This document shows positions 7,768 through 32,797 of a stretch of DNA of 51,432 nt, one piece after another; the first letter of the stretch is position 1; every line of letters begins with the position of its first letter. The stretch spans positions 1 through 51,432 of the forward strand of contig DATLUO010000219.1 in assembly GCA_035533075.1 (NCBI GenBank), read 5' to 3'. The notes below the pieces were generated by a model that was given only the letters and a program-made list of their open reading frames with translations, was not told the DNA's origin and did not search any database. This DNA comes from Pirellulales bacterium (GTDB taxonomy: Bacteria; Planctomycetota; Planctomycetia; Pirellulales; JAICIG01). The position numbers were made by a program, and so were the translations under genes.

Positions 7768-10700
7768 ATGAGTCACATAAACTGCTTGAGCCAACAGGAA
7801 CTTTCCGACTATTGCCTGGGCACGCTCGATCCCAAGCTCGCCGACGACGTCGCCGATCACGTCGAGCACTGCCCGCGGTGCGACTTTACGCTCCGGCAAC
7901 TCGAGGCGCAAGGCGATACGCTGTTTTCGTCGCTGCGGGAGCCGGTGTATGACGATCCCTACCTTCGCGAGCCGGAGTTGAGCCGCGTTTTTGATTTGGC
8001 GGCCGCCCTCGCGCCGGCGGCGGCTTCGGGACCGGCCGTCGCCGAGCAGCTTCGCGATTATCGGCTGCTGGTCCGGTTGGGGCAGGGTGGCATGGGCACG
8101 GTTTACAAAGCGGTGCATACCCGCTTGGACAAGCTGGTGGCGGTCAAGCTGCTGCCGCCCGACCGCACCCGCGACCCACACGCCGTGGCCCGCTTTCAGC
8201 GTGAAATGAAGGCGGTCGGCAAGCTCGAGCACCCGAATATCGTGGCCGCGCACGACGCCGGCGAGGCCGATGGCCGGCACTACCTGGTGATGGAATACGT
8301 CGAGGGACTCGATCTCGCCGAAGTCTCGCGCCGCGCGCGGCCGCTCGCCGTGGCCGACGCTTGCGAGCTGGCCCGCCAGGCGGCGCTGGGACTCGATTAC
8401 GCCCACCACCACGGCCTGATTCACCGCGACGTCAAGCCCTCGAACCTGATGCTCACCGCCGACGGGCACGTGAAGATTCTCGACCTCGGCCTGGCCTTGT
8501 TGCAGGGCGAGCCGGTCGCCGGCGGCGAGCTGACGGGCACGGAGCAACTGATGGGCACCACCGACTACATGGCCCCCGAGCAGGCCGGCGACTGCCACGG
8601 CGTCGGCGGCCCCGCCGATATCTACAGTCTCGGCTGTACGCTCTACAAGTTGCTGACGGGCGTAGTGCCCTACGGCGGTCCGGCATTCGCGACGTCGATG
8701 AAGAAGTTGCTGGCCCACGTCAACGCACCGGTGCCGAACCTGGCGGAGCGCCGTGTCGGCCTGCCCGATGGGCTGGTAGCCGCCGTGGAGCGGATGATGG
8801 CCAAGCTGCCCGAGGCACGGTTTGCCACAGCGGCCGAGGTGGCGGGCGCGCTGGCGCCCTTCGCCGCCGGCAGCGACCTGCCGGCCTTATTCGCCGCCGC
8901 CGCGCGGAAGACCGCATCCGGCGCGGCGCAAACGCATGCGTTACCCACCGTCGCGTCGGCGGCGCCGATTCACGCGGCCTCGCTATCGCAAATCGCCGAC
9001 ACCAACGACTATCTCTCGTCAGCACTCAGCGGAACGGAGGACGACGTCTCGGACGTTGCCCCAGCGGAGTCTGCAGGGAACGCCCTCTGTGGCGTTCCGC
9101 TGGCCGCGGACCCAACGTTGCCGACGGTTACTCGGAACGCCACCGAGGGCGTTCCCTACAGAATTCCGCCACGCCGGCGACTGCTCGTCGCCGCGGCCGG
9201 CGCCGCGGCGGTTTTGCTGATGGGCGTCGTGATCATCGTCAAAATGCGCGACGGCTCGACGCGCAGGTTCGAGGTTAAGGGCGACGTGAAAGAATTCACG
9301 ATAACTCCCAAGGACGATGCCGATGCCACCACGACGCCCGCAGACCCCAACCGCGAAGTTGTGAAATGGGTGTTCGAAGTAGGCGGGAACGTGGCGGCCG
9401 TCAATCGCGAGGCGTGGGGGTGGCCAAGCAAGTGGCCGGAAAGTCCGTCTGACGTGCCAGACGACTCCGATGATTTGATGATCCTACTCATGGATTGTCA
9501 AAAAGTTACCGATGCCGACCTCAAGCGTTTCAAATCGCTTACCAAGCCGTTTTGGTTGTGCCTGACGCGTACGCACATCACCGACGCGGGGCTCGCGGAG
9601 CTGCGCGGGCTGCCAAACCTACGCATTCTCATTCTTGACGAAACCGCGATTACGCGCGTCGGACTCGAGAACCTTGGCACCCTGCCCAATCTTGAAACAA
9701 TCGAGCTTCAGCGCACCGCAACGAGAGGCGCTGACCTAGGGCTTTTGGCCAACTTTCCAAAATTGGGACTCGTCGGCGTCGGACCGCCGCATTTGAGCCT
9801 TGAAGGGGTCGAGGTGTTGTCGACGATGCCGAACGTCTCTGTCGGGTTGACCGCTGTCGGGGAGGCCGACCTGAAATATTTTGGCAAACTGAGCCATCTG
9901 CAGTCGCTCTCCGTTGGCGGCAAGGAATTCAACGACGCTTGCCTTGAACCGCTCGCCAGTCTGACGAACCTGACGGTGCTGGGCCTATGGGACACGTCGG
10001 TCGGCAATGCCGGTATTGCCCGACTTCCGCTTCAGGCGCCTCGCCTCACGGTCCTGAGTGTCTCCTATGGTCGGCTGACCGACGATGCCGTGCAGCACCT
10101 GACCAAGCTGCGGAAGCTCGATGGCTTAAATCTTCTCGCGACAGGAGTGACGTCCGCCGGCGTTGCCGAACTAAAGGCCGCCTTGCCGAATTGCAAAATC
10201 CAATGGACGGATTCCGGCCGCACACCGGCTCCGTCCGAGGCCGACCGCGAAGTCGTGAAATGGGTATTCGGCGTAGGCGGCCGAGTAGCGGCCGTCGGTA
10301 AAGGGCCGTGGGCCTGGCCGGGCAAGTTCCTCGAACGACCGTCGGACTTGCCTGACGACCTCGACCAATTGAGTATTGTGCTTGCGAATTGTAGGGAAGT
10401 GACCGATGCCGACCTCAAGCGGCTAAAATCACTCCCCAAGCTATTTGAGTTGAGCCTGAGCGGCACGCGCATCACCGATGCGGGGCTGGCCGAGCTTCAC
10501 GGGTTACCGAACCTCCGAGTGCTATATGTAGACGAGACTGCGATCACGCGCGCCGGGGTCGAGAAGCTTGGCGTGCTGCCGAATCTTGAAATGATCCGTC
10601 TTGGCGGTACAGCGACGACCCCGGCGGATCTGGTCCTGCTCTCGCGGTTTCCGAAGCTCGCTTTCATACAGCTTGGCCGCGCTCAATTGACCAACGAGGG

Positions 10701-32295: not shown

Positions 32296-32330
32296 CGTGA
32301 GTTTCTCCAACGGCAATCATTTGCGGCCGG

Positions 32331-32424
32331 CTCTGTAGAGAACGCCCTCCGTGGTGTTCCGCGAAGACCGGCACGGCGCCAACCGTCGTGCGGCGGAACG
32401 CCACGGAGGGCGTTCCCTACAGAG
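32331..32424. repeat. Palindromic repeat element, intergenic copy
   Basis: Arms 32331-32362 and 32393-32424 are near-perfect inverted copies with the same core as the element inside the kinase gene at 9071-9161. The spacer sequences differ, so only the arms are conserved. Confidence 0.88.
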
Positions 32425-32551
32425 CCGGCACCAGCGACATTATAGTGGACCATTTTCGATTTCGCTGCTACCGTTAGGCGTTGGTTCTTCGGGAATGAGC
32501 TTTGCATTCCTGGAGGGACGTTTGGCACGTAAGTTTTTGCGGAGGTCAGCC

Positions 32552-32797
32552 ATGAAAATCGAGTTGCGCTACTGCTCGGTTTGAAACTACGAACCGAAGG
32601 CTGTCAGTTTGGCAAGCCGAATTCTGTCGCAATACAAATTGCAGATCGAACGCCTGGAGTTGGTGCCCGACCGTGGAGGATGTTTCGAGCTTTCGGTCGA
32701 CGGCGATCTGATCTACTCGAAGCTCAAGACGGGCGAGTTTCCGGATGAGGAGGCGATGATCGGCAGCATCGGCAAGCAGCTTAAAAAGAGGTTGTGA
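32552..32797 (+). CDS. SelW-like Rdx-family selenoprotein with in-frame UGA (Sec)
   Basis: ATG 32552 follows GGAGG by 6 bases. The frame reads MKIELRYCSV, then TGA at 32582-32584, then NYEPKAVSLASRILSQYKLQ, LELVPDRGGCFELSVDGDLI and YSKLKTGEFPDEEAM to a TGA at 32795-32797, 81 residues in total. Reading the internal TGA as selenocysteine gives YCSVUNYEPK, which matches the CxxU redox motif and following lysine/proline context of selenoprotein W (mouse YCGAUGYKPK). The rest matches the short thioredoxin-like Rdx fold, including the GGCFEL and LIYSK strands. A stem-loop follows the UGA at 32599-32618. Known SelW-type proteins are small thiol/selenol redox proteins. Standard calling would give only 62 residues from 32609. 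No selA/B/C/D gene lies in the window. Confidence 0.82.
32599..32618 (+). promoter_or_regulatory. SECIS-like hairpin downstream of the UGA codon
   Basis: GGCTGTC (32599-32605), loop AGTTT, then GGC-A-AGCC (32611-32618) forms a 7-bp stem (one G-U pair) with a single bulged A, beginning 14 bases after the UGA. Bacterial SECIS elements lie inside the coding region at about this distance and have a small loop with a conserved G-U. Assignment is by hand folding. Confidence 0.5.

Follow-up and report, generated by a model that had tools for sequence, protein, structure and literature searches.

The window, which is the whole stretch of DNA that was analysed (51,432 nucleotides; contig C219 of an 8.5 Mb, 99% complete Pirellulales assembly), contains a genuine gene that loses its active site in standard gene calling. 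This gene almost certainly encodes a SelW-like selenoprotein in which the UGA at 32582 would be read as selenocysteine (Sec). The assignment draws on the reading frame, the position of the UGA, its conservation, a SECIS-type constraint, full Sec machinery in the genome and the predicted fold.

Gene and reading frame

A Shine-Dalgarno-like GGAGG is located 6 nt 5' of an ATG at 32552 on the + strand. The frame starting at this ATG has TGA as codon 11 and is open from there to a final stop, TGA, at 32795-32797. The read-through product has 81 residues (MKIELRYCSVUNYEPKAVSLASRILSQYKLQIERLELVPDRGGCFELSVDGDLIYSKLKTGEFPDEEAMIGSIGKQLKKRL). The features of the gene, with the basis of each in brackets, are as follows.

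32541-32545, + strand: Shine-Dalgarno-like GGAGG (sequence)
32552-32797, + strand: putative selenoprotein gene of the SelW-like type (Rdx family, PF10262), encoding 81 residues of which one is Sec (Pfam, NCBIfam, AlphaFold2 model)
32573-32584, + strand: CxxU redox motif, Cys8-Ser-Val-Sec11 (frame reading and homologues)
32582-32584, + strand: in-frame UGA, predicted to be read as Sec (TGA in 80/80 of the best 80 of 245 homologues; selB co-occurrence)
32599-32618, + strand: SECIS-like hairpin of the bacterial type, with GGCUGUC/GGC(A)AGCC as its stem and AGUUU as its apical loop (bSECIS constraints, 88-gene conservation)
32609-32797, + strand: 62-aa stub open frame, TTG start, without the active site (open reading frame reading)

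The gene stands by itself between neighbours that point the opposite way. The frame left for a standard caller runs from TTG 32609 to 32797, and the Rdx match of this 62-aa stub (6e-11) does not cover profile positions 1-18, where the active site is located. An earlier note on this DNA, made from the letters alone, had described the GGAGG and ATG, the TGA at the 11th codon exactly on the CxxU redox position, the complete Rdx protein obtained when the TGA is ignored, and the loss of the active site in a 62-residue stub from 32609. Each of these descriptions was borne out, the TGA being located at the second redox position, Sec11, and its selenoprotein reading was further supported by the Sec machinery, the TGA of homologues and the hairpin constraints described below.

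An inverted repeat of 37 nt (95% complementary, 30 nt spacer) is located just 5' of the gene at 32326-32429, and a second copy of this palindromic repeat is found at 9077-9155 of the window. The repeat core GGAACGCCACGGAGGGCGTTCC gave 111 matches in the genome with up to 2 mismatches, often as inverted pairs, and the reversed control gave 0. The GGAACGCCACGGAGGGCGTTCC repeat is classed as a REP/MITE-like family.

Family assignment and predicted fold

The read-through protein was matched to Pfam Rdx (PF10262) over residues 2-71, spanning the TGA, with an E value of 1.5e-18 and a score of 67.2 bits (cut-off 22.6), and to NCBIfam TIGR02174 (CXXU_selWTH) with 62.9 bits (cut-off 34.2). The score against the NCBIfam equivalog NF041051 (SelTWH_Campy) was 75.1 bits, under its cut-off of 88. 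Comparison of the sequence profile with Rdx proteins of solved structure, which are about 24-35% identical to the window protein, gave E values of 6e-15 to 2e-6.

An AlphaFold2 model was generated from a 22-sequence alignment with Sec modelled as Cys. The model has the order beta-alpha-beta-beta-beta-alpha with a pLDDT of 90.8; strand 1 comprises residues 2-8 and the first helix residues 14-31, with CxxU in the loop between them. Foldseek returned 2obk and 2fa8 with E values of about 1e-7. The bacterial Rdx structures 2obk (P. fluorescens), 2fa8 (A. tumefaciens) and 2p0g (V. cholerae) gave TM scores of 0.84-0.88 with an rmsd of about 1.1 Å to the predicted fold, and mouse SelW (2npb) gave 0.68; all four have the fold predicted for the window protein. 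We take the three bacterial structures to be Cys forms. An Rdx thioredoxin-like fold is therefore predicted for the window protein, and the predicted anatomy indicates that it is most likely a small thiol/selenol oxidoreductase, with presumed redox activity.

Homologues and conservation of the TGA codon

Genome contigs were scanned with the patterns NYEP..AVSL and YSKL.TG.F, and the alignment begins after the TGA; the scan is blind to the Sec codon, so Cys forms were equally findable. Sixteen further TGA-bearing genes in the order were aligned, and each has a single internal TGA, always at this codon. Aquisphaera insulae (L086) and Gemmata sp. IIL30 (L117), which are cultured relatives, also have this gene. 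Among the best 80 of 245 homologues the Sec codon is TGA in 80/80 and Cys in 0, which leaves room for rarer Cys forms farther out. These 80 are labelled Planctomycetota (Pirellulales, Gemmatales and Isosphaerales groups), apart from two MAGs labelled only 'bacterium' and one Kuenenia-labelled MAG, the latter also a planctomycete. The earlier note had proposed inspecting this column for C or U and had named stops elsewhere in homologues as the sign of a pseudogene; the column holds TGA and the sign is absent from the 16 genes of the order.

A pseudogene or sequencing error, with TGA as a disabled Cys codon (TGC/TGT to TGA), would be in keeping with truncation of the protein under table 11 and with TGC to TGA being a single substitution. 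It is made very improbable by the retention of the same TGA throughout the best 80 of 245 homologues and by strong purifying selection on the codons (dN 0.16, dS 1.51, dN/dS about 0.11 against the nearest relative). Equally improbable is that the true gene is the 62-aa frame from TTG 32609, or begins at another downstream start, with the upstream part untranslated. That frame is open and retains an Rdx match, but family members share the 10 codons 5' of the TGA, among them the YC of CxxU, together with a start codon and in many cases a ribosome-binding site. TTG 32609 is moreover the conserved Leu of NYEPxAVSL and is located within the SECIS loop, and a start there would remove the active site along with strand 1 and some of helix 1.

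Searches of the order and the class also gave Rdx genes that lack the TGA, mostly from distant subfamilies, and distant homologues (L024-L028, for example) have Cys in the Sec slot. In one gene (L129, G320:C172) the Sec slot is GGT, a Gly codon, yet the CAGTTTGG SECIS loop is retained; this may reflect a recent loss or an error in the assembly. Divergent SelW-like subfamilies of the same class also carry TGA at the CxxU position (L137, L144, L145, L133, L135 and L136), with motifs such as YCTSUGYR.., YCVQUNYTP.. and WCTDUNLK.., and some genomes of the class have two SelW-like genes.

Sec machinery in the genome

The genes selA, selB, selC and selD, which the earlier note had proposed as a check in the same genome, were all found, and the Sec-decoding trait is complete. 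One tRNA-Sec (selC) is located on C135 (62.2 bits over gathering score); its anticodon is UCA and its variable arm is long. A full-length selB was found on C122 (371 bits, 2-577 of 581), selA on C202 (558 bits) and selD on C31 (284 bits). Decoding of UGA as Sec is thus expected in this genome. The selD sequence is the C-terminal part of a 741-aa single frame (L021 1390-3615, G000:C31), the N-terminal part of which resembles an FAD/NAD-dependent oxidoreductase (domain judged by eye).

The window itself gave no Rfam match at gathering score and no tRNA. A tRNA-Sec model match on C255 was identified as tRNA-Ser by ARAGORN, and a second Rdx-like match in the genome (C36) scored 13 bits, under the cut-off. 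The two strong formate dehydrogenase-like matches of the genome have no in-frame TGA, and so give no sign that FdhA is a selenoprotein in this genome.

Co-occurrence with selB was surveyed in 298 genomes of the class. An Rdx gene with internal TGA is present in 111/298, and full selB was found in 106/111 of these vs 46/187 of the others (odds ratio 65, Fisher p 8e-37, a p value overstated by shared ancestry since genomes and not independent events were counted). The five genomes with the TGA form and no full selB match (G096, G163, G196, G251 and G289) are 79-93% complete, and the missing selB is likely an assembly gap. Of the Rdx genes with plain Cys, the eleven with the highest scores are from eight genomes without selB and three with both forms. 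The gene is located 1.6-7 kb from selB in four genomes of the class; in G062 selW, selD (with its own UGA), selB and selA follow in this order on one strand (L180 4130-9074, G062:C184).

SECIS-like hairpin

A hairpin, GGCTGTC-AGTTT-GGC(A)AGCC, begins 14 nt past the TGA and occupies 32599-32618; the 7-bp stem-loop reported there earlier was recovered as a stem of 7-8 bp with one bulged A. The loop is AGUUU (or GUU with the A-U pair closed). The earlier note had suggested a bSECIS search here; when compared with the published bacterial SECIS constraints, as quoted in PMC13188914, the hairpin agrees with four of four (loop G present, spacing 21-22 nt, -10.1 kcal/mol). The folding energy of 32582-32630 relative to shuffled sequence is unremarkable (z = -0.41), and the rank of this hairpin in a synonymous-recoding control is only 11%.

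Conservation was measured in 88 distinct homologous genes against codons redrawn synonymously with local usage. All four core pairs are formed in 92% of the genes vs 17% under recoding, and the mean MFE is -9.6 vs -5.9. In 84/88 genes the serine of the loop is encoded by AGU, the background serine codons at the same loci being AGU in 10% and TCN in 68%, and the valine codon 5' of it ends in C in 83/88. Nine genes have compensatory C-G to T-A changes at the outermost core pair. Distant paralogues with other residues at this site (ATSL, AASL) keep CCAGTTTGG, as is predicted for a nucleotide-level element and not for a protein motif. It is from the conservation in the 88 genes that the hairpin is judged to be more than chance; the alignment, and not the single-sequence energy, points to constraint at the nucleotide level.

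UGA is recoded in other bacterial groups, and the codon at 32582 might by the same token specify a residue other than Sec, through recoding to Trp or Gly or through near-cognate read-through. This has very little probability: the final stop of the gene is itself TGA, the genome has a dedicated tRNA-Sec(UCA) with SelA/B/D, the Sec slot is Cys in the distant homologues given above, and the SECIS-type hairpin is conserved.

With Sec as the preferred reading, translation would start at ATG 32552, and SelB-GTP, loaded with Sec-tRNA(UCA) and held by the 32599-32618 hairpin, would outcompete release factor 2 at UGA 32582. Sec would be inserted and translation would continue to UGA 32795. The product would be an Rdx thioredoxin-like protein with a Cys8-x-x-Sec11 selenenylsulfide pair directly before helix 1, most likely acting as a small thiol/selenol oxidoreductase.

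Two-TGA forms

TGA is found at both redox positions (YUxxU) in three Gemmataceae-like genomes of two genera, G295, G273 and G145 (L130, G295:C121; L131, G273:C222; L132, G145:C82), with the motif LRYUAMUGYEPQAVSL. Their sister genomes within these genera are CxxU, with one TGA only. In the UxxU genes the lone hairpin would be 9 nt farther from the first UGA and still in the allowed range. This observation was made in draft-genome sequence and is treated as a lead. In a 2026 review, UxxU is given for other families and not for SELENOW-like (PMC13188914). From the sequences we lean towards a planctomycete SelW clade that is effectively Sec-locked, in which at least two Gemmataceae-like lineages would also have exchanged Cys for Sec (UxxU, diselenide-type, one SECIS).

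Comparison with known selenoproteins

The bacterial SelW-like CxxU family has been known since at least 2005 and is abundant (literature including PMC2398784). A 2006 survey reported very few Cys homologues of SelW-like in Sec-using organisms (PMC1794560), overlooked SelW genes were reported in Epsilonproteobacteria (PMC4607533), and the 2026 review lists SELENOW-like with one Sec (PMC13188914). The window gene is an additional unannotated member of this family and not a new kind, and the novelty is modest. The same loss of the active site in gene calling is expected for close homologues across planctomycetes, the UGA being shared by all of the best 80 of 245. The 88-gene set provides a clean planctomycete SECIS consensus that can be used to find more selenoproteins, and a clade with almost no Cys replacements is useful for asking why some proteins hold on to selenium.

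The earlier note had regarded planctomycete selenoproteins as little described. This needs qualifying, as selenoproteins of the Porphyra epiphytes P1 and P2 were described in 2016; FdhA and FmdB but not SelW are named in the main text of that paper (PMC4807772). Our literature search found no paper naming selenoprotein W in planctomycetes. P1 and P2 share with the window genome the phylum and full Sec machinery, and their selenoproteins were also predicted from in-frame UGA and SECIS (PMC4807772). The window gene has in common with the bacterial SelW-like family (PF10262/TIGR02174) the domain, CxxU, one Sec and a bSECIS directly 3' of the UGA. It differs from known SelW-like genes in its Planctomycetota host and its score under the NF041051 cut-off, and its clade, in the best 80 of 245 members, is all TGA with no Cys form.
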